A stretch of DNA of 64,000 nucleotides from IMG/VR virus record IMGVR_UViG_3300035698_019437, positions 83,269 to 147,268 of that record. One strand, written 5' to 3'. This document shows positions 27,220-61,887 of this stretch, piece after piece (the first letter of the stretch is position 1; each line of letters begins with the position of its first letter). The notes under the pieces were generated by a model. The model was not told where the DNA came from and did not search any database. It was given only the letters and a program-made list of their open reading frames with translations. Made by a program: the position numbers and the translations under genes. This DNA is from a virus.

Positions 27220-27220
27220 T

Positions 27221-35792: not shown

Positions 35793-37715
35793 ATGAAAAA
35801 GAAGAAAAAGAAGACAAAGAAGACAAAGACAAATAAAACTGATCTAATCAGTAAGGCTAGAGTAAAGCTAGAAAGAATATATAAGAAAATACCAGATACT
35901 CAGGGATGTATGGAGAATTTGAAGAAGGAAAATGGTTGTAGTGCTTGGTGCTGCGTTGCGGCTGGAACTAAAGTATATACTCCTTCTGGATTGATACCGA
36001 TTGAAAACTTATCTGTCGGTGATCCTATTTTTACTAAAAATGGTTTGAGTAGAGTTGTCAGAACAGGTAATAGGTTTATCAAGGAACATATTTTAGAGAT
36101 AAAAACGTGCTATGGCAGAACAATCAGGCTTACAAAAGATCACAGAGTATTTGTAGATTTGATAACTAGAAAAAGTAGGTATGTATATGATAAATCGGAA
36201 TTTGTAGAATCTGAGTCGTTAATTCCTAAAACGGGTAAAAACGACCCTGGTCATTATGTAATTTTTCCAAAGATAAATATAAGAGAGAACGATAATCCGA
36301 TTTATATTCAAGTAAACAATTTCGCTGATGTTTTTGTTTGCAATGAGGGGGATGATCTTTCAAAAGATTCTGAATATTGTTATGCTTCATCTGTTAAAAG
36401 AGGTCGTAAAATCAAGAAAAATATTTTGTTAGACCCCGATTTTTGCTGGGTGCTGGGGTTATATCTAGCTGAAGGGTCTGTTTCTACAGATAGTGTAGAT
36501 TTTCATATTAGTTCTGACGAAGTAGATTTATTAAGTAAGTTAGAAAAGTTTGCTAAATCTTTGAATGTTTACTGTTCTAATAAAATTAATATAGGGAAAA
36601 GTAAAACTGTTAGAATTTTTAGTAGGGTATTAGCTAGATTTTTTAAGAATGCGGGTGGTTCTGGCTGTGAAAACAAAAAACTTGATGATAGACTTTTCAA
36701 ACTTATTGTATCAAAAAAAGAATTAAGAAACTCATTTCATCAAGGATTATATGCAGGAGACGGAACAAAAAAACTTTATAAAAATTTAAAATATGCTTAT
36801 ACTACTACTTCACGGAACTTAGTTGATCAGGTCGTATTTTTAAATTATCTAGATAATGAAATTCCTATAGTTCATCGTACACGAAGATATAATAGAAAAG
36901 ATTCTTTTTCTATATCTATCTCTAAGGGTAAGTTTAAGGATTATGTTGAAACCGATAATGATTTTAGGGTTCCTGTGAGAGATGTAAAAACCGTGTCATA
37001 CGATGGTTTAGTTTATGATATTGAGGTCGCTCACGGAGAATCTTTTTTGACTGAGGCAGGAGAAATACATAATTGTCAGATACAGTCTCCACAGGTTCTA
37101 TATGCTGAATTCCTTAATGGTTGGCAGTTTATTCTAGATAACTGGAAGCCTGTTGATATTATAGAGCTTGTAAGAAGGTCTCTTAATACTTATGTAGATA
37201 ATAAACCCACTAAAGGGTGTGTTATGTGGGATTCTGAGTCTAAGCTTTGTTTGAGTCATACGACTAGACCGTTTAGCTGTAGAATGTATGGTATTATTCC
37301 TGCTGAAGAATTTGCTTCTAGAATAGCTAGAGTAAAAGAGCAACTTAAGGATAAGAAAGATGCCGTTATCCATGATCAATGTGTTTTGGTTAGTACAGTT
37401 AGCGGAGAAAAAGTATCTACCATACAGACTGATATTTGGATGGATCAACTAACTCAAGTGGAAATGTTCATAGGCGTTCCACGTCATAGCATTCATGATC
37501 AATTTGGTGGTAGTTACAGAACATATCATGATCATGTATTAATTCATCTTTTTCCTGATGATGTGATGCAGAACCTTTCTATAGTAAGGGTACAAGGAAC
37601 GGATGAAGAAAAGGAAATTGTTGTAGAAAAGTTAACTAATCACTTTAGACAAAGAATGTTTAATATATTCACTGAAGGTGAAGAAAGTGGCAAAACAAAC
37701 ACAGAAGAGAGTTAA
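35793..37715 (+). CDS. YkgJ-like Cys-cluster protein interrupted by an intein
   Basis: A 640-residue precursor. The host protein has an N-terminal Lys run (MKKKKKKTKKTKT), then Cys motifs typical of the YkgJ/UPF0153 metal-cluster family: GCMENLKKENGCSAWC before the intein, and after it CQIQSPQVLY, GCVMWDSESKLCLSH and RPFSCRMYGIIP. These Cys would chelate zinc or an iron-sulfur cluster. Splicing out residues 54-427 (374 residues) would leave a 266-residue protein and join Cys53 to the Cys at 428. The intein cuts into the Cys cluster, so the protein cannot work before splicing. Family function is unknown. Confidence 0.85.
   Translation: MKKKKKKTKKTKTNKTDLISKARVKLERIYKKIPDTQGCMENLKKENGCSAWCCVAAGTKVYTPSGLIPIENLSVGDPIFTKNGLSRVVRTGNRFIKEHILEIKTCYGRTIRLTKDHRVFVDLITRKSRYVYDKSEFVESESLIPKTGKNDPGHYVIFPKINIRENDNPIYIQVNNFADVFVCNEGDDLSKDSEYCYASSVKRGRKIKKNILLDPDFCWVLGLYLAEGSVSTDSVDFHISSDEVDLLSKLEKFAKSLNVYCSNKINIGKSKTVRIFSRVLARFFKNAGGSGCENKKLDDRLFKLIVSKKELRNSFHQGLYAGDGTKKLYKNLKYAYTTTSRNLVDQVVFLNYLDNEIPIVHRTRRYNRKDSFSISISKGKFKDYVETDNDFRVPVRDVKTVSYDGLVYDIEVAHGESFLTEAGEIHNCQIQSPQVLYAEFLNGWQFILDNWKPVDIIELVRRSLNTYVDNKPTKGCVMWDSESKLCLSHTTRPFSCRMYGIIPAEEFASRIARVKEQLKDKKDAVIHDQCVLVSTVSGEKVSTIQTDIWMDQLTQVEMFIGVPRHSIHDQFGGSYRTYHDHVLIHLFPDDVMQNLSIVRVQGTDEEKEIVVEKLTNHFRQRMFNIFTEGEESGKTNTEES
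35952..37073 (+). mobile_element. Intein with LAGLIDADG homing endonuclease domain
   Basis: A 374-residue in-frame insert. It starts with Cys1 (CVAAGTKVYTPSGLIPIENL), carries the Hint-type N block, two endonuclease motifs (VLGLYLAEGSV and GLYAGDGTKKL), and ends with block F and G VYDIEVAHGESFLTEAG then HN before the next Cys. Terminal HN and Cys+1 are the standard residues for protein splicing. It is a selfish element inside the YkgJ-like gene at a conserved metal-cluster position. Confidence 0.92.
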
Positions 37716-38336: not shown

Positions 38337-40243
38337 TGATCAATTTAAATTCGCAGCAGAAGAAAGCAGTTGAACACGAAGAAGGTCCATGTCTAGTTGC
38401 CTCTGTTCCCGGAAGCGGTAAAACAGCGGTTCTAGTAGAACGTACTGCTAGGCTTATAGAGAAAGGTGTAACGCCTTCGTCTATATTGAGTGTTACGTTT
38501 ACTAATAAAGCATCTAAAGAAATGCGCAAACGAGTTACTAGTAGACTCGGTACTTCTAAAGTTGATTGTGTCATATCTACGTTTCATTCTTTTTGTGTAA
38601 AAGTTCTCAGGAATTATGGTTCGAATATAGGTTATGGTAGCAATTTTTCTATATTAGGTGATTCCGATCAAAAAGCTTTGATTTCTCAAATCGGCAAGAA
38701 GCTAGGTATTCCTAAGAAGAAAATCAATGCATATTCCATACTTTCTAAGGTAAATATATCCAGAGAGAATCTTGAGGAATTTATCGTTCTTGCAGCAAGA
38801 TTCGATAACGATCCAGCATCATGGGCTATAGCTAAAGAATATCTTGAAGAGATGAAGAAGCAGAACGCTATTGATTTTAGTGGTTTGCTATATGAGACTG
38901 TTCAGTTATTCCAGAAGTATCCTAAAATTCTGGAAGCTTTTCAGAATACTTTTAAGTATATACAGGTAGATGAAACCCAAGATACAAACTACATCCAATT
39001 TTACATGATTAATATGATTGGAAAGAAACATAGAAACATTATGCTTGTTGGGGATATCGACCAGTCAATCTATGCGTTCAGGAATGCAAGATATCAGAAT
39101 ATCGTTGATTTCCTAGAAGATCATAAAGATTGCGTTCGTATTCCACTTGAGAAGAACTACAGATCGACTCCTCAGATTATTCGTGTTGCGAACAAGTTGA
39201 TATGCCATAATTCTTCTCATATCGTAGATAAGTTTGAGACAGATAACCCTGATGGGCCTCCTGTTGTATATAAGGAGTTTAATGAGCCTCAAGACGAAGC
39301 TAGGTGGATCGCTTATAAGATTAACAAATTCAAAAATGAACTTGGGTATGATGGAAGCGATATAGCTATCTTCTATCGACTTAATAGGTTGTCTATGGAT
39401 TTGCAGCCTGCATTACGTCATGCAAATATTCCTTTTGTAGTTATAGGTGGTCCCAGCTTCTTTGATAGGAAAGAGATAAAAGATTCGTTAGCTATGATGA
39501 GATTTCTGTCTAATCCTAAAGACGGTACTGCTTTTTACAGATTGATAGACTTGTTCGACGGTATTGGCGATGTAACTGCGCATAAGATACAAGAATTGTC
39601 TAGACAAAACGATATTAGTCTTATTGATGCTTGTAGGAAAGTAGATGGATTGACAAATAGGACTCCTATCCGTAAGGCAGCTAAAAGAATAGCAGATGTT
39701 TTCGATTTCGATTACAAGGCATGCAATTTGACTCAGTGTTTCGATACGCTTATGAATAAACTTCGTTACAAAGATACTTTAGAATTGAAGTGCAAAACCG
39801 GCAAAGAATTTTTGGAAAGACAAGATAATATCGATTCCTTCGTCTCGGATGCAGTAGGTTTTACGAATAACAGTACAGCTAAAATAGATGATTATCTGAA
39901 GAACGTAAGCTTAATGTCTTCAGAAGATGGTGACGCGGATGAGCAATCGATTAGTCTAATGACGTTCCATGCAGCTAAGGGATTAGAATTTCCGATAGTA
40001 TTTACGGTAGGTGTCGAACAACAGATATTGCCTCATTATCTTGCTGTGGCTGATGCGACAGATGTTCAGTCTAAGAAAGAAGCCATAGAAGAAGAGAGGC
40101 GTATATTTTATGTTGGTATGACTAGAGCAAAGAAACATCTGAATATTTCTTCATGCAAATATCGCAGAGTACGTCAGCAAGGAATGTTCATACAACAATC
40201 AGGATTGCCTAGTCAGTTTTTAAAAGAATCTGGTTTAAGATGA
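38336..40243 (+). CDS. UvrD/PcrA-type superfamily 1A DNA helicase
   Basis: A 635-residue 3'-5' helicase. Motifs in order: SVPGSGKTAVLVERTA (motif I), TNKASKEM, VDETQDTNYIQ (motif II), VGDIDQSIYAFRNA (motif III), NYRSTPQI (motif IV), TFHAAKGLEFPIVFTVG (motif V) and RRIFYVGMTRAKKHL (motif VI). The start ATG 38336 has GAGGA ten bases upstream; a TTG at 38333 is an alternative. It likely removes proteins from DNA and helps repair or replication restart. Confidence 0.92.
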   Translation: MINLNSQQKKAVEHEEGPCLVASVPGSGKTAVLVERTARLIEKGVTPSSILSVTFTNKASKEMRKRVTSRLGTSKVDCVISTFHSFCVKVLRNYGSNIGYGSNFSILGDSDQKALISQIGKKLGIPKKKINAYSILSKVNISRENLEEFIVLAARFDNDPASWAIAKEYLEEMKKQNAIDFSGLLYETVQLFQKYPKILEAFQNTFKYIQVDETQDTNYIQFYMINMIGKKHRNIMLVGDIDQSIYAFRNARYQNIVDFLEDHKDCVRIPLEKNYRSTPQIIRVANKLICHNSSHIVDKFETDNPDGPPVVYKEFNEPQDEARWIAYKINKFKNELGYDGSDIAIFYRLNRLSMDLQPALRHANIPFVVIGGPSFFDRKEIKDSLAMMRFLSNPKDGTAFYRLIDLFDGIGDVTAHKIQELSRQNDISLIDACRKVDGLTNRTPIRKAAKRIADVFDFDYKACNLTQCFDTLMNKLRYKDTLELKCKTGKEFLERQDNIDSFVSDAVGFTNNSTAKIDDYLKNVSLMSSEDGDADEQSISLMTFHAAKGLEFPIVFTVGVEQQILPHYLAVADATDVQSKKEAIEEERRIFYVGMTRAKKHLNISSCKYRRVRQQGMFIQQSGLPSQFLKESGLR

Positions 40244-40941
40244 TATCTTACGAAACATTGATAGGAAAACACGATGGGGAGTCGGCATTTGTGTTTGGTG
40301 CTGGTACAAGTCTATTCGGAGTTGATCTTTCTCCTGTTCATAAACATATAGTTTTATGTGTTAATTCGAGCTTCATACTAATGCCGTGGAACGAGGGAGA
40401 ACCAGATAGAAGGTATTGGTTATCTAATGATGCTTTAGTAAGAAGATGGACTTACTGGTCTAAAGTGAAGAAATCTAAAGCCATTAAAATAGTACGCGAT
40501 AGTTGGAAGAAGTATGAAAAAGAGATAAGCGACTTTCTTGTTTTTTCTCCTAGACCGACTAAGGAAAGTGTTATCAATCCAGATGATACTGGTTTGTGCT
40601 ATTGTTCTAGCGTTCCAAGTAGTATAGATTTGGCAATACAAATGGGATGTAAAAAAATATTTGTAATGGGCTTGGATCAATATAAAGTTTCAGATCGCAG
40701 ATATTTTTGGGAATTTATGCCAAGGAAAGAACAGCCTACTTGGTCTCATGGATTTAGATATTTACCAAATTATGATCAGCAACTTTGGACGTTTGGTTTT
40801 GATAGACAAGCATATTCGGCGTTAGAAGAATTCTCGAAAATCAAAGGTGCAAAAATATACAATTGTAACATGATTAGCAAGATAGATTCGTTTGAGAAGA
40901 TAACGTTTGATCAAGCTTTGGAGATCGTCAATGGGAATTAA
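40240..40941 (+). CDS. DUF115/GT42-like protein (possible nonulosonic acid transferase)
   Basis: A 233-residue protein with a single Rossmann-like domain: GESAFVFGAGTSLFGVDL (about residues 9-26), VLCVNSSFI, and SIDLAIQMGCKKIFVMGLD (about 127-145) followed by RYFWEFMP. Order and spacing match the family of DUF115/Maf proteins and GT42 sialyltransferases, which use CMP-sialic acid type donors. A paralogue at 41740 and neuA, neuB and phosphatase genes lie next to it, supporting a sialyl-type sugar transfer. This is a motif-plus-context inference, not a certain family call. Confidence 0.55.
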   Translation: MISYETLIGKHDGESAFVFGAGTSLFGVDLSPVHKHIVLCVNSSFILMPWNEGEPDRRYWLSNDALVRRWTYWSKVKKSKAIKIVRDSWKKYEKEISDFLVFSPRPTKESVINPDDTGLCYCSSVPSSIDLAIQMGCKKIFVMGLDQYKVSDRRYFWEFMPRKEQPTWSHGFRYLPNYDQQLWTFGFDRQAYSALEEFSKIKGAKIYNCNMISKIDSFEKITFDQALEIVNGN

Positions 40942-41440
40942 ATGGACACATTTCAAAGAAACATCCAAACATAAGTTTTGGGTTTCTTTTTATATAGTAA
41001 AGATATGTCTGAAGCTTCTTAAGAGAGCGATTGTTCATGACGATAGCAAATATTCAGGAGAAGAAGGTAGACTTTTCGCTTTATCAGTTCCTAAGCTTAG
41101 AGGTTTAACTTATGGCTCGGAAGAGTATAAAGATATCTTAGCCAATATGCTCAATCCCGCAATCAAAAGTCATTATGCTAGGAATCGTCATCATCCGGAA
41201 CATCATGATAATGGAATTAATGGCATGTCATTTATTGATAAGATAGAAATGGTGTGTGATTGGAGAGCAGCAACAAGAAGACATGATGATGGTTGTATAT
41301 TTAAGTCTCTTGAAATAAATCAGAAACGATTTGGATATGATGATAGAGAGAAAGAATTGTTCTTGAGTATAGTAAAAGAATTGGAGAACGATAATGCAAA
41401 AAAGAGATACAATCAGGAGAAGATACACAGTGAGAGATAG
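40931..41440 (+). CDS. DUF5662-like hypothetical protein
   Basis: A 169-residue protein with many His and Asp: RAIVHDDSKYS, HYARNRHHPEHHD and EMVCDWRAATRRHDD. This resembles the phage-common family DUF5662 and looks like a metal-binding HD-type fold. The start (ATG 40931) overlaps the end of the preceding gene. Function is unknown; a phosphohydrolase activity is possible but not shown. Confidence 0.65.
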   Translation: MGIKWTHFKETSKHKFWVSFYIVKICLKLLKRAIVHDDSKYSGEEGRLFALSVPKLRGLTYGSEEYKDILANMLNPAIKSHYARNRHHPEHHDNGINGMSFIDKIEMVCDWRAATRRHDDGCIFKSLEINQKRFGYDDREKELFLSIVKELENDNAKKRYNQEKIHSER

Positions 41441-41750
41441 AGTATATAGAAAAAGTCATTTTCATAAATTCCCTTTCGATGCTATAAAGTATCGTAAAGA
41501 TGAGCATGGGTATCAGACTGAATATCCTTTGAACACATCCTTTGGTCTTGGCGGTCATGGATTTGCTGATGGAGTCTGGACTATTTCTATTATACATAAA
41601 GACTCTAGTGCGGATATATATGAATTGCCTGATTATCTGCAATACGTTCTGAATACAGTTAGAGACTGGGGCAGAAGTGACGTTAAGAACGATCTGAGAG
41701 TCAAGCTAGAAGATGTAACAAGATTATTAGGTATAGTCAATGAAGATTGA
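41394..41750 (+). CDS. Hypothetical protein (118 aa)
   Basis: Preceded by GGAGAACGATA and overlapping both neighbours. Basic N-terminus (KRDTIRRRYTVRDRVYRK), then a His/Gly/Phe-rich core (SFGLGGHGFADGVWTISII). No family was recognised; co-expression with the nonulosonic acid genes is implied by overlap. Confidence 0.65.
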   Translation: MQKRDTIRRRYTVRDRVYRKSHFHKFPFDAIKYRKDEHGYQTEYPLNTSFGLGGHGFADGVWTISIIHKDSSADIYELPDYLQYVLNTVRDWGRSDVKNDLRVKLEDVTRLLGIVNED

Positions 41751-42510
41751 AGAACTAGAAAATATGCATGCAGATTCTCCCCTGATATTCGTAACAGGAT
41801 CAGGTCCATCTCTTCATGATGTTAATATTGATATGATTAAGGAATATCCTATCATATCTGTTAACTCTTCTATTATGAAGTTCGGAGCATTTGCGAATCA
41901 TTTTGTTTCAGATGATATAGGTGCAAAAAACTGGAATTACTATACTCAAATACTTCCCAATATTCCATGTACCAAGTTGTTGTATAAAGACAAGTTGAAA
42001 ATGCATGCTAAATATTTTGATAAAGATAAGGTAGTATTCTTTAAACATAAATGGTGGTTTTCTCCTAAAGAAAACAAGTACAACTCAAAAGGTCTTGTTT
42101 TGACCAAGGATGCGAAGGCTCCAATTGTAGGTGCTAGAACTTCTTTGGGTACTGCTTTACATTTTGCGTACATAATGGGCGGAGAAAATACGAGAATAGT
42201 ATTATTGGGTTCTGATTGTTGTTACAGAGGAAATAAAAGATATTTCTGGCAACTTGATGGTGAACCTCAAGTATTTAGAACTACAGGAGAACCAGTATTT
42301 TCTACTCCTAATAGGGGTAGGTATATGGGAGAGCCAGTAGATGCTCATTCTATGGACTTCCTTCAATATTGGAAAGCGTTTGTAAAACAAAATGAAGGTA
42401 CTCCTAATCTTCATATTATAAATTCGTCAGGCGGCATTCTAGATTATTTTGAACGTATGCCTTTGGAAGAAGTGTTGATTAAATATGGAAACAAAAAGGA
42501 GCAAACATAA
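41740..42510 (+). CDS. GT42/DUF115-like protein (possible sialyltransferase-type enzyme)
   Basis: A 256-residue protein. FVTGSGPSLHDVNIDMI (about residues 18-34) compares well with the GNGPSL start of CstII-type sialyltransferases; IISVNSS follows, and RTSLGTALHFAYIMGGENTR (about 134-153) with IVLLGSD matches the nucleotide-binding half. The C-terminal LHIINSSGGILDYF (about 228-241) fits the last strand of that fold. Paralogue of the protein at 40240. Together with NeuA-like and NeuB-like genes it could transfer a CMP-activated sugar. The acceptor is unknown. Confidence 0.6.
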   Translation: MKIEELENMHADSPLIFVTGSGPSLHDVNIDMIKEYPIISVNSSIMKFGAFANHFVSDDIGAKNWNYYTQILPNIPCTKLLYKDKLKMHAKYFDKDKVVFFKHKWWFSPKENKYNSKGLVLTKDAKAPIVGARTSLGTALHFAYIMGGENTRIVLLGSDCCYRGNKRYFWQLDGEPQVFRTTGEPVFSTPNRGRYMGEPVDAHSMDFLQYWKAFVKQNEGTPNLHIINSSGGILDYFERMPLEEVLIKYGNKKEQT

Positions 42511-43258
42511 AATATTATCTGTAGTGACTGCTCGTGCTGATTCAAAAGGATTACCGGGTAAAAATTTCAAGATACTTGGGGGAAGACCTCTTTTTGAGTA
42601 TTCTGTATTTGCATCTCTTGACAGCGAAAACGTAGGGTTGACAACTGTAAGTTCCAATTGTAACGAAGTAGAAAAATACACCAAGATCATGTTGAATAGG
42701 ATGAATAGGAATATGGGGGTGTTGAATGATCGAATTTCTATGTTTAACGGTGGCGGTTACTTCATTGGTTGGTTAGAGTTTATAAGAAGGCCAGATGAAT
42801 TTGCTGGTGATATGAGTAAGAACGAAGATGCTTTGATACACACTTATAATTATTGTAAAGACAAATGGAACTTCGATGCGGATATCATAGTCAATCTACA
42901 GCCAACATCTCCAATTCGCAATAATGGTTTGCTTGATAAATGTATAGAGAAATTCATAGATGACGATGCGGATAGTTTATTCACATCATCAAAGCATACG
43001 CCGTTCTTCTTCAAGGAAAGAGATGGATTAGTGGTAGCTGAATGGGATGTGAAAAACAGGCCGATGCGACAAGAAATTTCTGATTTTATGTTTCACGACA
43101 ATGGGAATATTTATATAATGAAGAGAGACTTATTATTAAGTGAAAGATGTAGATTGGGTGGTAAGATGATAATGATGGAAACTGATAAGTTTCAAAGCAT
43201 GCAAATAGACGATGAAGATGATTTAGCTATCATAGAAAATGTCATGAGCAGATTATGA
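42485..43258 (+). CDS. neuA: CMP-nonulosonate (sialic acid) cytidylyltransferase, NeuA-like
   Basis: Activates a nine-carbon keto-acid sugar with CTP to a CMP-sugar. The signature TARADSKGLPGKNFKILGG (about residues 15-33) is the CTP-binding loop of NeuA. NLQPTSPIRNNG (about 138-149) and FHDNGNIYIMKRDLL (about 199-213) are also characteristic. At 257 residues it is about the usual length (around 220-230 plus an N-terminal extra). It overlaps the GT42-like gene by 26 bases, so sugar activation and transfer are co-translated. Exact sugar (Neu5Ac, KDN, legionaminic or pseudaminic acid) cannot be told. Confidence 0.85.
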   Translation: METKRSKHKILSVVTARADSKGLPGKNFKILGGRPLFEYSVFASLDSENVGLTTVSSNCNEVEKYTKIMLNRMNRNMGVLNDRISMFNGGGYFIGWLEFIRRPDEFAGDMSKNEDALIHTYNYCKDKWNFDADIIVNLQPTSPIRNNGLLDKCIEKFIDDDADSLFTSSKHTPFFFKERDGLVVAEWDVKNRPMRQEISDFMFHDNGNIYIMKRDLLLSERCRLGGKMIMMETDKFQSMQIDDEDDLAIIENVMSRL

Positions 43259-43551
43259 TTATTGTAGATATCGTATGGATAAATAAAGAAGATCACAGTG
43301 GTTTTGGTTCTATGGTAGCTCAAAAAATGGCAGATTATTTTCGTAGTCCTTATGGTTTTAGGACTCTATCTTATAAAGCAGATATCAAAAAAGAAAGATG
43401 GTTAGACCCTGATTATCACACTAAAGGTATGCAAGAGCCTAGATGCACTTTGTGGTACAAAGGGGATAAGCCAGATAATCACTTAGAAATCTCCGAAAAA
43501 TTGAAAGATATAGTGAATAAACTGTTTTTCTGGGATGTTATTATGGTTTAG
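43255..43551 (+). CDS. Hypothetical protein (98 aa)
   Basis: A compact protein in the nonulosonic acid region, beginning on the ATGA overlap with neuA. It shows IIVDIVWINKEDHSGFGSMV at the start and RCTLWYKGDKPDNH in the middle. No family was recognised. Confidence 0.6.
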   Translation: MIIVDIVWINKEDHSGFGSMVAQKMADYFRSPYGFRTLSYKADIKKERWLDPDYHTKGMQEPRCTLWYKGDKPDNHLEISEKLKDIVNKLFFWDVIMV

Positions 43552-43621
43552 TCGCGTGATAAGATTTCCTGTAACATCGTCATATGATGGACGATATGGT
43601 ATCAGTAGCAGGAGATAAATA

Positions 43622-44848
43622 GTGTATACACAGTCAGATTTTTTCGGCAACGTAATCGATTTAGATTTGAAAAGAGGGGTTAAGAAAATAGACTTACTTG
43701 ATGAAGGAAGAGAATCTTCTACTTTTAGTCTATGGGACGAAGAATTTACTCTACAAGAAGTTTCTAGTTGGATATATGGCATACTGGGAAGCCGATTTGT
43801 TAAGTGGACTAAAACCACGGAAACTGAAAACCGGAAATTTGTTTTTGGACCAGAAGTAAGGGTGTGGATGAATAGAAAATCAAATAGAAACTTATCTTCT
43901 ATTTTATTAGATACTGGCGTGAGCATAGAGCGTCAAAAACCATTTAGGAACTATTATGGAGGGACTTTAGTAGGCCCATCGCAGTCTAAGATATGGGCCT
44001 TTTTCCGTGAATCCGGTTTGAATAAATTTCTAGAACATTATTTATACGAGATGGATGGAGTAAAAATATATGAACAGTCAATCCCTGAGTTGAATCTTGA
44101 AAAAGAATATGAAAAGAATAGAAAATGTTTTTTAGGGGAAAATTTCTGCAATAGAAGTTTTAAACTAGGTATATCTGGATTGTCTTTAAGTTCGTCTTTA
44201 AATGTAAGTATATTAGATCAAGAAAATAAACTGCTAAAGTTAAAAACTGAAAAGCTTGCTAAGCGAAGTAAAAACTTATCGGATGTACCAATAGAAAATA
44301 TAAGAATTGCAGCTAGAAATTCTCATTATATTCCAAGGATACCTGTATATATAGATGGCTATGCAAATCATGTATCGTTATTTAAAGACGAGATGGTAAA
44401 TAACATGTCTGCTTTAGAAAATGTAGTACCTAAAAATATGTTAAGGCTAATAGAGAGTGAAGTCTGTTTGCACGGATTATCATCTACAAAAGAATCAAGG
44501 AAGTATCAAGCTTACAAGATAAGTAAAGAGCATATTGTAGATAACTCATACTTACAAAATTTTTTGTTCTACCCTCATTTTGTTGAAAACATAACTTTTT
44601 TACCTGTCGGTTATAATTGTTCGCTACCTAAATGGCAAAACGTAGAATCAGGAGTCAGGAAATCAGTAAAAACGATTAAAGACGGATGCTATTATGATTT
44701 TGACGAGTGGCGAGATTTAATATATGCTATTTTACAGAAATTGGAAGTTCAGTTATTAGATGAAACAAACAAATTACAAAAGAGTAAAATGACTAAATGT
44801 ATAAAAGAAATAAATCAAGTTATTGTATTAGTAGGAAAAGTTTTTTAA
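43622..44848 (+). CDS. Hypothetical protein (408 aa)
   Basis: GTG start with GGAGATAAATA upstream. A large globular protein without membrane segments or recognised motifs; basic surfaces (VRVWMNRKSNRN) and several Trp-rich turns (FSLWDEEF, VSSWIYG). It runs tail-to-tail into the neuB-like gene, the stops overlapping by four bases. It could be linked to the sugar pathway only by position. Confidence 0.65.
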   Translation: MYTQSDFFGNVIDLDLKRGVKKIDLLDEGRESSTFSLWDEEFTLQEVSSWIYGILGSRFVKWTKTTETENRKFVFGPEVRVWMNRKSNRNLSSILLDTGVSIERQKPFRNYYGGTLVGPSQSKIWAFFRESGLNKFLEHYLYEMDGVKIYEQSIPELNLEKEYEKNRKCFLGENFCNRSFKLGISGLSLSSSLNVSILDQENKLLKLKTEKLAKRSKNLSDVPIENIRIAARNSHYIPRIPVYIDGYANHVSLFKDEMVNNMSALENVVPKNMLRLIESEVCLHGLSSTKESRKYQAYKISKEHIVDNSYLQNFLFYPHFVENITFLPVGYNCSLPKWQNVESGVRKSVKTIKDGCYYDFDEWRDLIYAILQKLEVQLLDETNKLQKSKMTKCIKEINQVIVLVGKVF

Positions 44849-45720
44849 CCTCTTAACTTCTTTCTTTGTTCTGCTTCCATTTCATCTAATCCTTCAGGTT
44901 TGCTTTTTAAGCTCTTATATACAGCTTTAAGGTCTCTGCATAGTCTTCTTAAACCATCTGGCTCTAAGCTAGCTGCGGCATCCGTGTGAGGGAAAGCTCT
45001 ATCATCAACGAAGTGCCTTTCGATGTATGTAGCTCCCAATGTGTATGCTGCGATGTCTGCTGCTATTCCGTACCCATGATTAGAGAATCCAGTTTTGTAA
45101 GGAAAGTCGTATTTTATTCTTTTATTGTAATCAAATTCTGCTAAGTGTCTAACTTCTTCAAGATACATCTTTTCAAATGGAACAGGATATCCAGACGTAC
45201 AGTGGTAAATTACCATTCTGTCAGAATGTGCTTCATCTAGATCATGAATAAAATTGCTTCGTTCTTCTTGTGTCGTCATACCTAAAGAGATATGAATCTG
45301 TCCCTCGAAATTTTTATACAGATAATCTAATATATCTTTTCTGTGATTGCAGGCGCTTGGTATTTTTATCATATATGGATTTAGTTCTACAACTTCTTTC
45401 ACTGATGTCATGTCCCATACAGATGTACCGTACCCTATACCAATGTCTGCGCAGTAGTCTTTTAGCTTCGCATGTTGTGAAATATCTAGTTCAAGATTCA
45501 TTCTATGTTCTAGATAGGTATCTCCGTAAGCAAATTTTTCGTTAGGATGAGGCTTGTTCCACCACTCTTTTGGAACGCATTCCTTTGGATTTCGTTTTTG
45601 AAATTTGACAGCGTTTGCGCCAGCGAGTTTCGCTAGTTTTATAAGGTCTTTTGCTCTATTTATATTGCCAGCATGAACACACCCGATTTCCGCTATTACT
45701 TTACACAATTCATAATTCAT
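44845..45720 (-). CDS. neuB: Nonulosonate synthase, NeuB-like, without SAF domain
   Basis: Condenses phosphoenolpyruvate with a hexose or hexosamine derivative to make a nine-carbon acid sugar. Motifs: VIAEIGCVHAGNINRAKDLI (about residues 8-27), AVKFQKRNP, CTSGYPVPFEKMY (about 174-186), TGFSNHGYGIAADIAAY (metal His, about 207-223), IERHFVDDR and DAAASLEPDG. It is 291 residues and ends at the point where other NeuB proteins (about 340) begin their C-terminal SAF/antifreeze domain. The ribosome binding site CAGGAGAATACTA is strong. It is the only minus-strand gene in the window, perhaps a separate acquisition. Confidence 0.88.
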   Translation of the reverse strand: MNYELCKVIAEIGCVHAGNINRAKDLIKLAKLAGANAVKFQKRNPKECVPKEWWNKPHPNEKFAYGDTYLEHRMNLELDISQHAKLKDYCADIGIGYGTSVWDMTSVKEVVELNPYMIKIPSACNHRKDILDYLYKNFEGQIHISLGMTTQEERSNFIHDLDEAHSDRMVIYHCTSGYPVPFEKMYLEEVRHLAEFDYNKRIKYDFPYKTGFSNHGYGIAADIAAYTLGATYIERHFVDDRAFPHTDAAASLEPDGLRRLCRDLKAVYKSLKSKPEGLDEMEAEQRKKLRG

Positions 45721-45738
45721 TAGTATTCTCCTGCTTAT

Positions 45739-45767
45739 ATAATCGGAAATAAAATAACAGGTGTAAA
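45739..45767 (-). promoter_or_regulatory. Candidate promoter for the neuB-like gene
   Basis: On the minus strand TTTACA (5 of 6 bases of the -35 consensus, 45762-45767) is followed 17 bases later by GATTAT (4 of 6 of the -10, 45739-45744). It lies in the 68-base divergent gap, and the neuB-like gene must be transcribed from its own promoter since all neighbours run the other way. The exact boxes are inferred. Confidence 0.35.
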
Positions 45768-45788
45768 ACTGTTAGTTAAAATATATTC

Positions 45789-46292
45789 ATGGGAAAAAGA
45801 ATAAAATTAGTTGTATTCGATGTTGATGGAACTCTAACAAATGGAGTGTACTATATCTCAGAGAGTGGGGCAACCATGAAGGGTTTCCACACCAGAGATA
45901 TGTATGCACTGAATTTGCTTAAGAAATATGGTATAAAAGTTCTTATTATGACACAATCTCATGACAATTGTATGCAGGCGAAGTTGCAAAATGCATTTAA
46001 TTACGATACTAAGGATTGTCATATTGAACTTGTAACTCAAATTCAGGATAAATTTGAGTTCTTAGGAAACTACATAATTCAAAGAGGAATCACTTGGGCT
46101 GAAGTTGCTTATATGGGAGATGCAGAAAATGACAGGTTATGTTTGCTGAATGCTTGTAAGTCAGGTTGTCCAAAAGATGCTACTCAAGTAGCTCGTTGCG
46201 CATCTAGCTTTTTATCCGATAAAGATGGTGGACATGGTGCAGCATATGATTTTGTCATGCATATAACAAAAGATATCGAGGAAATAGAATGA
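45789..46292 (+). CDS. KdsC-type HAD phosphatase (nonulosonate 9-phosphate phosphatase-like)
   Basis: A 167-residue C0-type HAD phosphatase. Motif I VVFDVDGTLTNGVYYI (about residues 8-23) has the nucleophile and acid Asp; motif II is LIMTQS; and motif IV YMGDAENDRLCLL (about 113-125) binds Mg2+. In KDO biosynthesis this fold removes phosphate from KDO-8-P; in animal-type and KDN pathways a related enzyme removes the 9-phosphate. Divergent from neuB, it fits a route in which NeuB makes a 9-phosphate sugar. No clear ribosome binding site precedes the ATG. Confidence 0.82.
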   Translation: MGKRIKLVVFDVDGTLTNGVYYISESGATMKGFHTRDMYALNLLKKYGIKVLIMTQSHDNCMQAKLQNAFNYDTKDCHIELVTQIQDKFEFLGNYIIQRGITWAEVAYMGDAENDRLCLLNACKSGCPKDATQVARCASSFLSDKDGGHGAAYDFVMHITKDIEEIE

Positions 46293-47478: not shown

Positions 47479-47523
47479 GCCGAGAATATGTATTTGACCG
47501 GCAAGAAAGGAAGGTTAAGTTCA

Positions 47524-47922
47524 GTGTCAGAATACCACGTAGTAGATATTGAAGTAACAGACCAGCAGACTCTCGTTGAAACTCTCATTGAAATGGGATA
47601 TGCTCCTAAAATATATGATGAAGCTAAGGCTCTTTATGGATATCAAGGTGACGCTAGGTCTCAAAAGGCTCATGTTGTTGTTCCACGAAGTCAAGTAGGT
47701 AGCGCTAGTAACGATGTAGGTTTTGAACGTAAAAATGGAAAATTCATTATGCATATTTCTGCGTATGATAGAAACCATAAAAAGCTTAAAAAGAAAAAGA
47801 TACTTCAGCTTTATGCTAAGAACAGGATCGCTAAGGCTGTCAAGATAAAAAGCAAATATTCTATTGCTTCTCAAAAGACTGAGAAGGATGGAAGAATTCG
47901 TTTAAGAGTAAGGGTGTCTTAA
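47524..47922 (+). CDS. DUF1257 (Ycf35-like) protein
   Basis: A 132-residue protein starting at GTG 47524 (AGGAAGG lies nine bases upstream; an ATG at 47488 would add 12 residues). SEYHVVDIEVTDQQTLVETL and DEAKALYGYQGDARSQKAHV match the DUF1257 family, which includes plastid Ycf35. The C-terminal half is Lys-rich. The family is often near Ycf46-type ATPases, and such an ATPase is encoded here at 15670. Function is unknown; the pairing suggests a shared process. Confidence 0.8.
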   Translation: MSEYHVVDIEVTDQQTLVETLIEMGYAPKIYDEAKALYGYQGDARSQKAHVVVPRSQVGSASNDVGFERKNGKFIMHISAYDRNHKKLKKKKILQLYAKNRIAKAVKIKSKYSIASQKTEKDGRIRLRVRVS

Positions 47923-48503
47923 TGTCAAATAAATTATCTAGAAGACAGAAGAGTAAGTTTCGCAAGAAGGATCGTCTAAGGCAAAAAGATCAGAAAGCTA
48001 TATATAAAGCTGGTCTCAAGGCAATGGTAAAGAAATTTGATGACCCTATTCTTTCTTGTCAATGCTATTTTGTTAGGGAAGACGAAGATTTGAGTTTTGT
48101 CAAGACCCTTAAGAAAGTTCTTCTTGTTCATGACAATGGTGTCGGTTTGGCTGCATCGCAGATAGGAATCACTAAAGCCGTTGTAGCTGTGAGATTCGAT
48201 ATCAAGAAATACGATGTTAAGATTATGATTAATCCAGAAATTGTAGAGCATACTACGGAGATGGAAGCTGGTCAAGAAGGTTGCCTGTCCTACCCAAAGG
48301 TGGTTGGTAACATAACTCGATATAAGGGCGTTACTGTAAAATATCTGGATGAAGAGATGAAGGAACATGTTGAAAAGTTTACTGGTTTTAATTCTCGCGT
48401 TGTACAACACGAACTGGATCATATCGACGGAGTTTGTAAAATAGGAATCTGGTGGAAAGAGAATCAGGATCAGAAAGTCTACTCTGCACAGCCTTCTTCA
48501 TAA
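47922..48503 (+). CDS. def: Peptide deformylase
   Basis: Removes the formyl group from the N-terminal Met of new proteins. All three family motifs are present: GVGLAASQIG (about residues 73-82), EGCLSYP (about 117-123), and QHELDHIDG (about 162-170), giving Cys and two His metal ligands with the catalytic Glu. It has a basic 40-residue N-terminal extension (SRRQKSKFRKKDRLRQK), unusual for phage deformylases, which may bind ribosomal RNA. It starts on the DUF1257 stop and overlaps the AmrS gene. Confidence 0.93.
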   Translation: MSNKLSRRQKSKFRKKDRLRQKDQKAIYKAGLKAMVKKFDDPILSCQCYFVREDEDLSFVKTLKKVLLVHDNGVGLAASQIGITKAVVAVRFDIKKYDVKIMINPEIVEHTTEMEAGQEGCLSYPKVVGNITRYKGVTVKYLDEEMKEHVEKFTGFNSRVVQHELDHIDGVCKIGIWWKENQDQKVYSAQPSS

Positions 48504-49525
48504 TGAAATATTCAGAAAAACTTAGGGACGTAGTTTCTAGAACGGAAATCGGTAAAAAGTTCCGTTGTCTTATTTGTCCAAATAAATGTCTGATATCTCC
48601 AGGTGATCGTGGTAAATGCTACGTTAGAAAAGCTAGCAATGAATCCGTCTTCCTTGCTGAATATGGGAAAGTATCTTCTGCTGCCGTAGAGCCAATTGAG
48701 AAGAAACCAATTTATCATTTTATGCCTGGCTCTAAAGTTTTTTCGATAGGTACTCTTGGATGTTCGTTTAGTTGTGTATATTGTCAGAATCATCGTATCA
48801 GTCAAGACCAAAATTGTCCAGTTGTAGACATGCCTGTCAGTAAGGCTATAGACATAGCTTTGCATAAAGGCTGTGATGGTGTTTGTATGACATATAACGA
48901 GCCAATTCCTTCATATGAGTACCTTATAGAACTGGCTGAGGCGGCTCACAAGGAAGGTTTATATTTTGCCCTTAAAACTAATGGTTATGCAGAAAAAGAG
49001 CCTTGGAGGGACATCTGTGAGGTCACAGACGCTGTTAATATAGATTATAAGGCTGACAGTACCGAAAACTTTGCTAGTATTACAAGAGTTGGGTCTGATG
49101 CGGGTATAAGTTTTCGTAAAATACTCATGAGAATACAAGAAGCTATAGAAGATGATAGTATACATGTAGAAATGAGTCTTCCTTTGTATACCGGTTCAGA
49201 CGATTACAGTACTTTTAGAGGTATTATATCTGATGTAGATAGGAACGTTCCTGTTCATATCCTGAAGGTTTTTCCAGATCATGATTCCATGAAGTACAGC
49301 AGCACCCCAAATAAATCTTTGTTCGTTTTGAGAGATTATCTTAAAGAAGAACTTAATTTTGTATATGTAGAAAATGTTTTTGATGAACAAGGCCAAGAGG
49401 CTAGAAATACTGTTTGTACTAAATGCGGATATGTCGTAGTAAGAAGAAATAAGTTCGACATATATGTTACTAATTCCAATTGCGATGAATGCTCATCTTC
49501 TTTGGTATTGCAGTATGAGAGATAA
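48503..49525 (+). CDS. Radical SAM enzyme, AmrS (AmmeMemoRadiSam)-like
   Basis: A 340-residue radical SAM protein. An N-terminal Cys motif (CLICPNKCLISPGDRGKC, about residues 22-39) is followed by the cluster motif CSFSCVYCQNH (CxxxCxxC, about 87-97) and typical MTYNEPIPSYEY, KTNGY and NIDYKAD. This order is that of the AmmeMemoRadiSam radical SAM protein, related to pyruvate formate-lyase activase. A C-terminal zinc-like pair (CTKCGY and CDEC) follows. The natural substrate is unknown. ATG 48503 overlaps the deformylase stop. Confidence 0.88.
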   Translation: MKYSEKLRDVVSRTEIGKKFRCLICPNKCLISPGDRGKCYVRKASNESVFLAEYGKVSSAAVEPIEKKPIYHFMPGSKVFSIGTLGCSFSCVYCQNHRISQDQNCPVVDMPVSKAIDIALHKGCDGVCMTYNEPIPSYEYLIELAEAAHKEGLYFALKTNGYAEKEPWRDICEVTDAVNIDYKADSTENFASITRVGSDAGISFRKILMRIQEAIEDDSIHVEMSLPLYTGSDDYSTFRGIISDVDRNVPVHILKVFPDHDSMKYSSTPNKSLFVLRDYLKEELNFVYVENVFDEQGQEARNTVCTKCGYVVVRRNKFDIYVTNSNCDECSSSLVLQYER

Positions 49526-49542: not shown

Positions 49543-51459
49543 ATGGGTTCACCGGAATTTACTATTGTACACTACATAGACAGTTTAGGCATAGGCGGCG
49601 CACAGTCTATGCTTTTTGAGCTGTACCATGCCTTAGAAAAATACTATCCAGAAGTATCTCAAAGCGTTTGGTTATCTAACAAAAAATGTACATGTTCTTC
49701 TTTTATCAAATCTTATGGTATAGATTACCATTTTGTTCCTAAAAGTAGCTTCGTAATGACTATTACGGCTTTTGAAAAGCCCGTAATATTGATCTATCAT
49801 AAATTGATGGGTTCTCATACTGACATATACAGAGGTATCAGGAAAAGAGTGCCAATCATAACCATTAATCACACCTTTACCAAGAATCCTGTTTATAATA
49901 GAATTAGTCCATGCGATATGGTTGTATGTGTCAGTAGACATATGAAGTCGTTTCTTAGACGAAGACTAAAAAATCAACGTATGGCTGTTATACGAAATGG
50001 TATAGATTTAAATAGATACAGCGGGATCGCCCCAAGAGAGAATCCATATAAGGATGTATTTCTTACTGGTAGAATCAACTCTTTCAATTCTATTAAGTTT
50101 TCTAAATCTTGGGTGAAGTGGTGTATCGATGTTAAGTTGTCTAAGAAGATGATCCATGAATATATAGGAGATGGTCAATACTATAAAAGTATAAAAACGT
50201 TTTTGAAAGAGAAAACTGATTCTAGAAACGACGTTGTTTTACTAGGTAAGATTAAAGACTTCGACAGAAAAATATCCATAGTCAAAAACTGGGATATCTT
50301 TTTGTATGAGGTTAATCGTGATGAGGGTGTGAGTATAGCTATATTAGAAGCTCTTGCTTGTGGTGTTCCCGTAATATGCAGTAATCATTTCGGTAACAAA
50401 GAAATTATAGAAGAAGGCGTCAATGGATATGTATTTACAAAGAGAGAAGAAGCTGCTTCTATTTTGAAAAGACTTTCTTCTAGACCTGATGAGCTAGATG
50501 CTTTGAAAAAAAGTACGTTGGAGCATTTCAAAGAAAATCTAGATATCAAATATGCAGCAGAAGGATACATGGAAAAAATAGTTAATATTTGTAAGAAAAA
50601 GAAAATCAGGATTCCTTCTGGTATAAAAAGCAAAATAGAGGGTAGGAAAGAGAAGGAAGCTATTAAAGAGATTGTTGAGAAAAAACCACAATCTAAAGAC
50701 AACAAGCTTTTTTCTATATTGACTGCTGCTAGGAATGTGAGTCCATATCTAAATGATTGGGCGATGTCTATCTTAGAACAAACTTATAGACCTTTGGAAG
50801 TTATTTTCGTAGATGATTCATCTACAGATGATACGTTTGAAAAAATAATTAAACTGTATCCTAAATTCAAAAGAGAAGATATATCTATGAAAGTTGTCCA
50901 CAATGATAAAAGATATCATTGTGGCACGGCTTATGCGAAGGCATGGGAGATCGCATCTGGATTCTATTTCGGAGTTCTAGATGGCGATGACATGTTATAT
51001 CCAGATGCTGTTGATTATATAGTAGATTTGTACGAATCTAATCCTGATATAACATACATATATACCCAGTTTATGTTATGCAACACTAAAATGAAAAATG
51101 TCAGAAAAGGTTTTTGTCATGCTCCTAAGAGGGGTAAGTCTTTATTGGATATGGGAGGTGACAAAGTTCATGGGTTCTCCCATTGGCGAACCTTCTCTAA
51201 TAGATTACCAAAGATAGAAAAGATTTGGGGTAGAGGGCTTAGAGCAGGAATAGACAAGTATATGGGATATAGATTAGAAGAATTTGGAAAAGGCATGTTC
51301 ACTAATAAGGTGTGTTATAAATACAGGTGGGCTAGACCGGGATGTATATCTAAAACTGAAAAAGCCATAGCTTCATGGCAAAAGATTATTAAAGAGGCTG
51401 AATGGCGTAGGAAGAAGTATAACATTAAACCTTACCCAATAATAGACCATAAGGGATGA
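49543..51459 (+). CDS. Fused GT4-like and GT2 glycosyltransferase
   Basis: A 638-residue bifunctional enzyme. The N-terminal GT-B half (about residues 1-355) has GIGGAQSMLFELYHA near residue 18 and the donor motif SIAILEALACGVPVICSN (about 265-282) with EIIEEGVNG. A Lys-rich linker follows. The C-terminal GT-A half (about 388-638) has LFSILTAARNVSPYLNDW, FVDDSSTDD and LDGDDMLYPDAV. The C-terminal half is closely similar to the separate GT2 protein at 55225 (shared YTQF, GFSHWRTFS, DKYMGYRLEEFGKGMF). This suggests a fusion or fission between neighbouring enzymes. Confidence 0.88.
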   Translation: MGSPEFTIVHYIDSLGIGGAQSMLFELYHALEKYYPEVSQSVWLSNKKCTCSSFIKSYGIDYHFVPKSSFVMTITAFEKPVILIYHKLMGSHTDIYRGIRKRVPIITINHTFTKNPVYNRISPCDMVVCVSRHMKSFLRRRLKNQRMAVIRNGIDLNRYSGIAPRENPYKDVFLTGRINSFNSIKFSKSWVKWCIDVKLSKKMIHEYIGDGQYYKSIKTFLKEKTDSRNDVVLLGKIKDFDRKISIVKNWDIFLYEVNRDEGVSIAILEALACGVPVICSNHFGNKEIIEEGVNGYVFTKREEAASILKRLSSRPDELDALKKSTLEHFKENLDIKYAAEGYMEKIVNICKKKKIRIPSGIKSKIEGRKEKEAIKEIVEKKPQSKDNKLFSILTAARNVSPYLNDWAMSILEQTYRPLEVIFVDDSSTDDTFEKIIKLYPKFKREDISMKVVHNDKRYHCGTAYAKAWEIASGFYFGVLDGDDMLYPDAVDYIVDLYESNPDITYIYTQFMLCNTKMKNVRKGFCHAPKRGKSLLDMGGDKVHGFSHWRTFSNRLPKIEKIWGRGLRAGIDKYMGYRLEEFGKGMFTNKVCYKYRWARPGCISKTEKAIASWQKIIKEAEWRRKKYNIKPYPIIDHKG

Positions 51460-51460
51460 T

Positions 51461-52036
51461 ATGAAAGATACTCTGAAATTTTATGATAAAATATATAGTC
51501 CACTTTTTAAAAAAAATTATACGAAAAAATCAAATCGAGCAGGACCGTCATTACAACAGTTAGAAGTTTTTAGAAAATCTAATAAAATAGACATACATAA
51601 AGTAATAGATGTTGGGTGTTCGTGGGGAAGGGCTTTAAAATATTGGAGAAAGCGTAATGTCTATGCTGTTGGGGCAGATGTTTCTAAAATCGTTGTAAAA
51701 CATTGCATTAAACATAAACTTAATTGTAAACGATCTTCTGCAACTGATTTATCTAAGTTTAATGATAAATCTTTTGACCTTTATATGTCAACAGATGTTT
51801 ATGAGCACATTAGAGAAAAAGATTTACAATTTGCTATAGAAGAAGCAATACGTGTTACAAATAAGTATTTTCTTATCAGAGTACATACTATGCTAGATAA
51901 AAGAGGTACACTTCATTTGACTGTGTGGAACCTTGATCGTTGGGCCTCTTTTTTTATGAATAATGGTTTAAAAATACTTAATTTCGGGGATGGTAAATTT
52001 AATACATATAAAAATACGTTTTTCATGGAGATATAA
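51461..52036 (+). CDS. Class I SAM methyltransferase
   Basis: A 191-residue methyltransferase with VIDVGCSWGRALKYW (motif I, about residues 48-62), GADVSKI (motif II), FDLYMSTDVYEHI (about 102-114) and LIRVHTM in later positions, like methyltransf_11 enzymes that modify small molecules, sugars or lipids. Lies in the glycan island and may methylate a sugar. The DNA around it is more AT-rich than nearby genes. Confidence 0.8.
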   Translation: MKDTLKFYDKIYSPLFKKNYTKKSNRAGPSLQQLEVFRKSNKIDIHKVIDVGCSWGRALKYWRKRNVYAVGADVSKIVVKHCIKHKLNCKRSSATDLSKFNDKSFDLYMSTDVYEHIREKDLQFAIEEAIRVTNKYFLIRVHTMLDKRGTLHLTVWNLDRWASFFMNNGLKILNFGDGKFNTYKNTFFMEI

Positions 52037-52542
52037 TGGCAACTGAATTAAGGGCAAAGCACAATAAATGGCTTAAAGAGATTTTGAAACATAAAAAATT
52101 CGGTATCGTATTAAATCTTGGCTGTGGTAAAAATAGAGATTCTGAGGGGCATACATATAAATCTTATATAAATTGTAAAAAGATTATAAAGATAGACCCA
52201 GACCCAAAATTTAAGAAAATAGTTGACTTTAAGGCTAAAGGAGAAGATATACCGCTTGAAGATGGTTTAGTTGATCTAGTATTTATGAATTGGGCGTTTC
52301 ATATGACTGACATGACTGTTGTACTTTCTGAGATTTGTAGGGTTCTTCGTAAGAATGGAAAGGTACTTATAAGTTATGCAGATCATAATTATGATGAAAC
52401 AGTGGCAAGGAAAAAAGTAGCTGATATTAGATTTTTGTTAGAGAGTAAGATTACTATTGAAAAGTTTTTTGAAAATGAAGCTCATGGTATTACTGGTGGT
52501 TTTTTTCAAAGAGCCGAAGCTATATATGGTAGGTTAAAATGA
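52036..52542 (+). CDS. Class I SAM methyltransferase (short)
   Basis: A 168-residue methyltransferase, with VLNLGCGKNRDSEGH (motif I, about residues 23-37), KIDPDPKF, and LVDLVFMNWAFHMTD (about 77-91), plus an EICRVLRKNGKVLISY strand. Typical of type-11 methyltransferases. ATG overlaps the preceding stop, so it is coupled with the methyltransferase upstream. Confidence 0.78.
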   Translation: MATELRAKHNKWLKEILKHKKFGIVLNLGCGKNRDSEGHTYKSYINCKKIIKIDPDPKFKKIVDFKAKGEDIPLEDGLVDLVFMNWAFHMTDMTVVLSEICRVLRKNGKVLISYADHNYDETVARKKVADIRFLLESKITIEKFFENEAHGITGGFFQRAEAIYGRLK

Positions 52543-52991
52543 CAAAAAAGTGTTTCGATATATCTGGTAAAATAATATGTGGTATTCGAGCTGCTTTTGT
52601 TAAAGAGGATGGGTTGCTTGGAGATATCATTCCTAGAAAAGATAGTTTGAACGAAGCTGTTCTTAAATTACAATCGAAGATGAAATTACATAAATCGTTA
52701 TTAATATCTTCGCCAAGTAATTTAGCTTTTAAAGATGGTCATTTTTTTTGCTATTATGGGAGCAAGAAATTTTATTATCCGATGTCAGAAGAAAAAGGTG
52801 TGTTTATTTTTATGCCATTAGTAACTGGTAGAAAGGATTCTAAGGATACTTTTATATCGAATTATATTCAATGCGCTCGTATATTGGCAGTTAAAGGTAT
52901 ATTTCCAAAAATTCTAGGTGCACAAAGTGTAAATGTAGATATTGATGTATATTATGTTAAAAAAATCTTGATGATCTTGGACAAAAGATAA
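52539..52991 (+). CDS. Hypothetical protein (150 aa)
   Basis: Overlaps the previous gene by four bases. Two Cys and a Lys-rich region; mixed alpha/beta appearance (GVFIFMPLVTGRKDSKDTF). Lacks recognised motifs. By position it is part of the glycan island. Confidence 0.6.
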   Translation: MTKKCFDISGKIICGIRAAFVKEDGLLGDIIPRKDSLNEAVLKLQSKMKLHKSLLISSPSNLAFKDGHFFCYYGSKKFYYPMSEEKGVFIFMPLVTGRKDSKDTFISNYIQCARILAVKGIFPKILGAQSVNVDIDVYYVKKILMILDKR

Positions 52992-53020
52992 AAAAATGTC
53001 ATAGAGATAATGCTGTAGGA

Positions 53021-53380: not shown

Positions 53381-53390
53381 AGGAAAATAA

Positions 53391-55995: not shown

Positions 55996-55996
55996 T

Positions 55997-57641: not shown

Positions 57642-57651
57642 AGGGAAATTG

Positions 57652-59567: not shown

Positions 59568-59574
59568 GGACATT

Positions 59575-61885: not shown

Positions 61886-61887
61886 AA

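Follow-up and report, generated by a model that had tools for sequence, protein, structure and literature searches.

A pathway for KDN has been described in Bacteroides thetaiotaomicron, comprising a KDN-9-P synthase, a KDN-9-phosphatase and a CMP-KDN synthetase (Wang et al. 2008, as relayed in PMC6200933). The phage locus described here has these three enzyme classes in common with it, including a C0-type HAD phosphatase, and the top NCBIfam model for the phage phosphatase is the one named for the B. thetaiotaomicron enzyme. Unlike that pathway, the locus is phage-borne, its NeuB is devoid of a SAF (antifreeze-like) domain, it includes two dedicated genes with a sialyltransferase fold, and its proteins score below the equivalog cut-offs. 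As to the animal 9-phosphate route (NANS, a phosphatase and CMAS), the two halves of mouse CMAS are the closest solved relatives of the phage NeuA and HAD proteins. The latter are encoded by separate genes, whereas they are fused in animal CMAS, and the phage HAD retains both catalytic Asp, the first of which is Asn in the mouse domain (3ewi).

Among cellular loci, the closest NeuB clade (about 50% identity) combines a SAF-less NeuB with a NeuA-HAD fusion; the closest cellular NeuBs mostly adjoin such fusions, which have the architecture of animal CMAS. In Sediminibacillus (L124), the related NeuB lies inside a flagellin-glycosylation island with flagellin, Maf and FliD, and in this island, as in the phage cassette, nonulosonate (NulO) genes are accompanied by an MptE/Maf-superfamily transferase. 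In two other cellular loci (L140 and L195), a gene similar to the phage GT2 adjoins a NeuB/NeuA pair. Compared with the cellular fusion loci, the phages have separate NeuA and HAD genes and short (233-256 aa), single-domain transferases. These share with the GT42 sialyltransferases (CstII, 9c08) the fold, a weak profile similarity and the GxGPSL and GxD motifs, but do not reach the CST-I cut-off or clearly align with the catalytic His. Activation and transferase genes are also phage-borne elsewhere, as illustrated by phrog_4603 ('alpha-2,3-sialyltransferase') and by neuA, which is listed among marine viral AMGs (PMC10653327), but these are single auxiliary genes, whereas huge phages carry an apparently complete, conserved, multi-gene CMP-NulO cassette.

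Organization of the cassette

The window (the whole stretch of 64,000 nucleotides that was analysed) corresponds to positions 83269-147268 of a linear IMG/VR record of 147,268 bp, which belongs to a large, uncultured phage. The genes for NeuB, NeuA, a KdsC-type HAD phosphatase and two paralogues that had been proposed from inspection of this DNA were all found there as intact open reading frames (Table 1). The original prediction gave no strand for the NeuB gene, which is on the minus strand; the same inversion is seen in phage loci L100, L101 and L116. The 3' end of the GT2 gene overlaps the 5' end of the NeuA gene by 26 bp. Because a gene at 43622-44848 and a DUF5662 gene at 40907-41440 had no homologue in the other loci compared, they were not counted as parts of the cassette. 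The cassette sits among replication genes, adjoining a UvrD-like helicase, and a large glycosyltransferase array is found downstream (49543-63763).

Table 1. Genes of the predicted nonulosonate cassette, with positions in the window
Gene	Position	Strand	Length (aa)	Assignment
GT1	40240..40941	+	233	GT42/MptE-like putative NulO transferase
GT2	41740..42510	+	256	MptE/GT42-like putative NulO transferase
NeuA	42485..43258	+	257	NeuA-type CMP-nonulosonate synthetase
NeuB	44845..45720	-	291	NeuB-family synthase without SAF domain
HAD	45789..46292	+	167	KdsC-type (C0) phosphatase, predicted NulO-9-phosphate phosphatase

NeuB, NeuA and the HAD phosphatase

NeuB matched PF03102 with E = 4.7e-59 and 200 bits, well above the curated cut-off (22.1). 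The match stops at profile position 239 of 241, and the SAF domain of canonical bacterial NeuB, PseI or LegI had no match anywhere in the record. NeuB_NnaB was the top NCBIfam model; the protein matched TIGR03569 at 2e-49 (168 bits, under the equivalog cut-off of 399.65) and the PseI model at 1e-34. The catalytic Glu and Lys residues and the two metal-binding His (E11, K39, K119, H215 and H236) are invariant across the cassette family. A TYxxH[RK]xx[LI]E motif, presumably also present in animal NANS, was found in all 14 cassette NeuBs and in 1 of 92 NeuBs from other phage loci. The position of human NANS Met42 varies across the cassette NeuBs and is thus not decisive for the substrate.

NeuA scored 37.4 bits against PF02348 (3e-9; cut-off 22.6), and its closest solved relative was mouse CMP-NeuAc synthetase (CMAS, 1qwj, 7e-15). 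The motifs ARADSKGLPGKN, LQPTSPIR and QIDDEDD are kept across the family, LQPTSPIR being of the NeuA type. The pathway reading had been said to fail if the closest relatives of NeuB and NeuA were KdsA/KdsB or other families. Model scores and motifs ruled out the KdsA and KdsB identities; in the case of NeuA, the PseF model gave 1e-15 as compared with 1e-6 for the top KdsB model.

The assignment of the HAD protein as a KdsC-type phosphatase also held, with KdsC models matched at about 1e-17. Its top NCBIfam match was NF058599 (KDN-9-phosphatase; 3e-22, 79 bits, under the equivalog cut-off of 180) and its top PDB match the HAD domain of mouse CMAS (3ewi, 7e-20). The Asp pair, Lys and distal Asp that define a C0 HAD phosphatase are all present, D11, D13, K88, D111 and D115 being invariant in the family. 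The residues that we take to determine the specificity of the Bacteroides phosphatase were not seen in the phage HADs.

Putative transferases

GT1 and GT2 are distantly related paralogues, sharing 22% identity (E 1e-7), and belong to the GT42/MptE/Maf fold superfamily. Both matched phrog_4603 (1e-10 for GT1 and 5e-10 for GT2). The AlphaFold model of GT1 (pLDDT 92) matched in Foldseek searches both CstII (GT42, 1ro8; probability 1.00, TM 0.54/0.51, E 8e-4) and the MptE-type kinase 8sd5 (probability 1.00, E 1e-4), the two equally well. With GT2 the model (pLDDT 94) matched viral MptE-like proteins at TM 0.56-0.65 and gave weak fold matches in the PDB (E > 1e-3, TM < 0.4). The GT2 family profile retrieved GT42 sialyltransferases as top PDB matches (9c08, 2.7e-4, and CstII; E 3e-4 to 1e-3), with 8sd5 ranking below the GT42 chains. 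The resemblance to GT42/DUF115 proteins proposed from sequence patterns was therefore borne out, by the model for GT1 and by the profile for GT2, so that the other ground named in the original prediction for giving up the pathway reading, models without the CMP-binding fold, did not apply either. Against the Pfam CST-I model (cut-off 25), GT1 reached 13.3 bits and GT2 had no match, and no clear counterpart of the GT42 catalytic His was found in GT1. In GT2, H203, Y162 and Y168 are conserved and are candidates for the active-site positions of CstII. GT2 matched PF01973 at 2.4e-5, and its L011 orthologue scored above the Pfam cut-off. The fold by itself fits a sialyltransferase and an MptE-type pterin kinase alike, and it is the gene context that tells the two apart. 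GT1 orthologues adjoin NeuA in L098, L100, L101, L102, L109, L112, L115 and L116. We therefore regard GT1 and GT2 as putative transferases of NulO from CMP-NulO.

Conservation in other phages

At least 13 more IMG/VR contigs (up to 548 kb) contain NeuB with NeuA and with GT1 and/or GT2, at 30-60% identity. These homologues were recovered with alignment queries; scans of viral contigs with the single NeuB and 41740 (GT2) sequences gave no matches. In the closest measurable pairs of GT1, GT2 and NeuB, dN was 0.14-0.29 and dS 0.8-3.5, indicating purifying selection. The joint recurrence of the same genes in independent, diverged phage contigs is more than expected by chance. Since many huge phages have the set, it gives the impression of a genuine device, kept by selection, for coating some target with sugar in the course of infection. 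The neighbours of NeuA/NeuB in other phage lineages likewise include MptE-like genes or members of GT29, the vertebrate-type sialyltransferase family.

In INPHARED, the matches to NeuB were limited to MH319754 and LR756508 and those to NeuA to a Moritella record; 41740 (GT2) had no match. A search confined to the open literature retrieved no phage cassette of this kind; only neuA was named, among marine AMGs.

Proposed pathway and alternatives

The cassette probably serves a 9-phosphate route to a NulO, followed by transfer through GT1 and GT2 to acceptors made during infection. A KdsC-type HAD gene was found near 13 of the 14 cassette NeuBs, as against 1 of the 92 NeuBs at other phage loci. 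Together with the NeuA-HAD fusions beside the closest cellular NeuBs, this linkage strengthens the 9-phosphate reading, already put forward in the original prediction, and suggests that the cassette NeuB uses a sugar-6-phosphate. DegT and NanE were absent from 13 cassette records and NeuC was present in only one, so that the route is likely to begin from a sugar phosphate of the host; for lack of DegT in these 13 records we also rejected a phage-complete pseudaminic or legionaminic route. In the window record neither NanE nor NeuC was found, but this record is a fragment and its absences count as weak evidence. We infer the following order of steps in vivo. NeuB would condense a host hexose-6-phosphate (Man-6-P being favoured and ManNAc-6-P possible) with PEP to NulO-9-phosphate, which the HAD phosphatase would convert to NulO; NeuA would then form CMP-NulO, most likely CMP-KDN, from which GT1 and GT2, two enzymes with a sialyltransferase fold and kinship to GT42, MptE and Maf, may transfer the sugar to the acceptors.

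KDN is the favoured sugar. The same enzymes could make an N-acylated product, Neu5Ac, from host ManNAc-6-P as in animals. The kinship of NeuA and HAD with mouse CMAS and the first rank of NeuB_NnaB are in line with this, but we consider it rather unlikely. The SAF domain, which in Neisseria meningitidis NeuB supplies an Arg touching the N-acetyl group, is missing from the phage NeuB; with no NanE or NeuC in the window record, the host would have to supply ManNAc-6-P, which is made by fewer bacteria than Man-6-P is. It is still less probable that GT1 and GT2 share only a fold with transferases and work as MptE-type pterin pyrophosphokinases or as some other kind of nucleotide-binding enzyme, the product of NeuA, NeuB and HAD being used by host transferases. 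The matches to PF01973 and 8sd5 would fit, as would the occurrence of both functions on one fold. However, such genes lie next to NeuA time and again, in several independent lineages of phage NeuB and in the cellular loci L140 and L195, GT29 genes occupy the same place elsewhere, and the GT2 profile puts GT42 chains ahead of 8sd5.

With respect to the acceptor, a protein, possibly of the virion, is slightly favoured. PF01943 flippases were not matched in the window record or its nine relatives (10 cassette phage records), which mildly favours a protein acceptor in the cytoplasm, where Maf modifies its target protein (PMC13317340). We tentatively propose, without rating it as high as an even chance, that huge phages of a widespread lineage sialylate the proteins of their own virions (e.g., giant tail or adhesin-like ones) in the host cytoplasm, with a self-made CMP-KDN-like sugar and Maf/GT42-like transferases, as a phage-autonomous system. 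Modification of a host surface polysaccharide, resulting in receptor masking or superinfection exclusion, is a serious contender that also falls short of likely. NulO are common on bacterial LPS or capsule, phage genes that alter the host surface have many precedents, and the downstream glycosyltransferase array would suit such a role; the lack of a flippase and the flagellin/Maf island among the closest cellular ones argue against it. We kept this explanation because host enzymes could provide the missing export steps. Finally, it is very improbable that the sugar is placed on modified DNA bases. DNA glycosylation is known in other phages and the cassette lies among replication genes, but the thymidylate synthase/hydroxymethylase family was unmatched in the window record and in 7 of 9 relatives.

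Sugars of the sialic acid type are well known as markers of self and as receptor determinants. As huge phages have a conserved route of their own to an activated nonulosonate and dedicated transferases, a charged sugar at the surface of virions or hosts may be under their control, with possible effects on adsorption, superinfection and recognition. The cassette also yields small enzymes from a little-studied, SAF-less NeuB clade and renders the question of phage sialylation directly testable. Elsewhere, the window record encodes very large structural or adhesin-like proteins upstream, and phage replication genes are found inside the window.

The cassette is conserved across phages

All five ORFs of the cassette were intact in the window, and the families originally predicted for them (putative transferases GT1 and GT2, NeuA, NeuB and a KdsC-type HAD protein) stood, with one correction: NeuB lies on the minus strand. 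A profile built from three phage NeuBs retrieved hundreds of NeuB relatives from IMG/VR, and a scan of their neighbourhoods showed GT2-NeuA-NeuB-HAD in a single order, with the same helicase gene close by, in loci L011 (494 kb) and L013 (334 kb). Additional cassette contigs were obtained with GT1 and GT2 profiles. L100 and L101 have all the genes and, like the window, an inverted NeuB, L109, L112 and L115 have the five genes collinear, L116 has GT1, NeuA, inverted NeuB and HAD, L107 is without GT1, L104 has two GT2 genes, and the cassette of L102 is cut by the contig end. NeuB was present in all 13 records searched whole. Pairwise identity across cassettes was 27-77%, and dN was well below dS in the most similar pairs of GT1, GT2, NeuB and HAD that could be measured; synonymous sites of NeuA were mostly saturated, the one measurable pair shown giving dN 0.44 versus dS 1.98. 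Judged by these sequence comparisons, the cassette is a linked set under long-term purifying selection, not a group of chance neighbours. Each of its enzyme families is already known, neuA appears among published phage AMGs (PMC10653327), and the cassette belongs with phage-borne glycan synthesis, an already known phenomenon. In the open literature that could be searched, we came across no account of a phage CMP-nonulosonic acid cassette that is conserved and has transferases of its own.

NeuB, HAD and the likely sugar

The catalytic residues E25, K53, Q55, K129, S154, Y186, H215, H236 and D247 of N. meningitidis NeuB aligned with E11, K39, Q41, K119, S145, Y178, H215, H236 and D247 of the window NeuB, all invariant in the cassette family. 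Cassette NeuB stops short of the C-terminal antifreeze-like (SAF) domain, and none was found elsewhere in the window's record. The motif TYxxH[RK]xx[LI]E occurred in 14/14 cassette NeuBs versus 1/92 NeuBs at other phage loci, and a KdsC-type HAD lay nearby in 13/14 versus 1/92. In the NeuB tree, a branch with 100% SH-aLRT support placed the cassette NeuBs, which could have a single origin, with a broad cellular clade and apart from other phage NeuBs. Many of the cellular NeuBs adjoin a protein of about 390 aa with the NeuA + HAD architecture of animal CMP-sialate synthetase. Both domains were confirmed in L124 (Sediminibacillus terrae), where the pair shares its neighbourhood with genes for flagellin, FliD and a transferase of Maf type (PF01973 + PF20157). 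The NeuB and HAD evidence, all of it from sequence, supports a 9-phosphate route.

Neither a DegT aminotransferase nor NanE turned up in the 13 cassette records, and NeuC was detected in just one of them, so the host would be the source of the starting sugar phosphate. Among sugar phosphates Man-6-P has the broadest availability, and it would lead to KDN, which we infer to be the product. KDN-9-phosphatase was the top NCBIfam model for HAD, with a score under its cut-off. Hao et al. (cited in PMC6200933) reportedly found in 2006 that one mutation at Met42 of human NANS, the animal 9-phosphate synthase, abolishes KDN activity; the position presumably matching it varies across cassette NeuBs and leaves the sugar choice undecided.

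GT1, GT2 and their acceptor

GT1 and GT2, the putative TRANSFERASES, are distant paralogues with confident AlphaFold models (pLDDT 92 and 94). The GT1 model matched both MptE (8sd5) and CstII (1ro8) with probability 1.00. The GT2 model had weak PDB fold matches and a TM of 0.56-0.65 to viral MptE-like proteins, and its family profile retrieved GT42 enzymes first. A transferase and a pterin kinase are inseparable by fold alone, but can be separated by gene context. Since NeuA also has an MptE-like neighbour at phage NeuB loci unrelated to the cassette (for instance L029, L034, L067 and L068), and GT29 genes take that place at others, GT1 and GT2 are more probably transferases than pterin kinases. 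The GT29 genes beside phage NeuB/NeuA in L003, L018 and L074 encode true members of this family of vertebrate-type sialyltransferases (PF00777, E as low as 2e-32), with about five copies in LR756508.

The acceptor is slightly more likely to be protein, perhaps that of the virion, than host polysaccharide, because PF01943 flippase had no match in ten phage records, the window's record lacks the thymidylate synthase/hydroxymethylase family, and cytoplasmic modification of flagellin is known for Maf relatives (PMC13317340).

Genomic surroundings and other NeuB loci

The record is linear (147,268 bp, the window being positions 83269-147268). It comes from a tailed phage, since it encodes very large structural/adhesin-like proteins outside the window, and DnaB, DNA polymerase III alpha, UvsX and UvrD-type genes within it; it is probably a piece of a larger genome. 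Genes of the glycosyltransferase array resemble counterparts in phage records G003 (548 kb) and G012 (219 kb), and a block of HAD, DUF1257, deformylase and radical SAM genes is common to the window and L014 of G003. The giant kelch-like protein is possibly a fibre or adhesin, and a candidate acceptor.

Features of the window and of other phage loci
Feature	Location	Remarks
Giant protein, kelch-like repeats + Ser-rich stretch	window 1-5685	ORF start G000 (window's record) 80893; 2686 aa in full
DNA polymerase III alpha	window 25906-29867	two ORFs, 437 + 653 aa
Deoxycytidylate-deaminase-like ORF	window 27385-27906	between the two polymerase ORFs
Intein, LAGLIDADG-type domain	window 35793-37715	interrupts cysteine-rich protein
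DUF1257 protein, peptide deformylase, radical SAM gene	window 47488-49525	after cassette; gene order as in L014
Glycosyltransferase + methyltransferase array, 14 kb	window 49543-63763	first ORF a fused GT4-GT2 protein; arrays alike in G003, G012
GT29 (PF00777)	L003 7247-12068	LR756508, 484-kb phage
GT29 (PF00777)	L018 7439-8107	
GT29 (PF00777)	L074 4770-5369	
Second, canonical sialate-type locus	L201 4159-10079	G004:C1:180000-194000
NeuB-SAF protein	L202 4001-5458	G003
NeuB-SAF protein	L203 3133-4599	G012

L201 lies in a 351-kb phage record that also has a cassette (L015/L119). It encodes a full-length NeuB with SAF, NeuC (352 bits versus an NCBIfam cut-off of 236), a cytidylyltransferase-like ORF, MptE/DUF115-like ORFs and a KdsB-type gene above the NF003952 cut-off. 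The NeuB-SAF proteins of L202 and L203 (about 485 aa) have a C-terminal extension, possibly cupin-like, and an SpsF-like cytidylyltransferase ORF lies near their genes.
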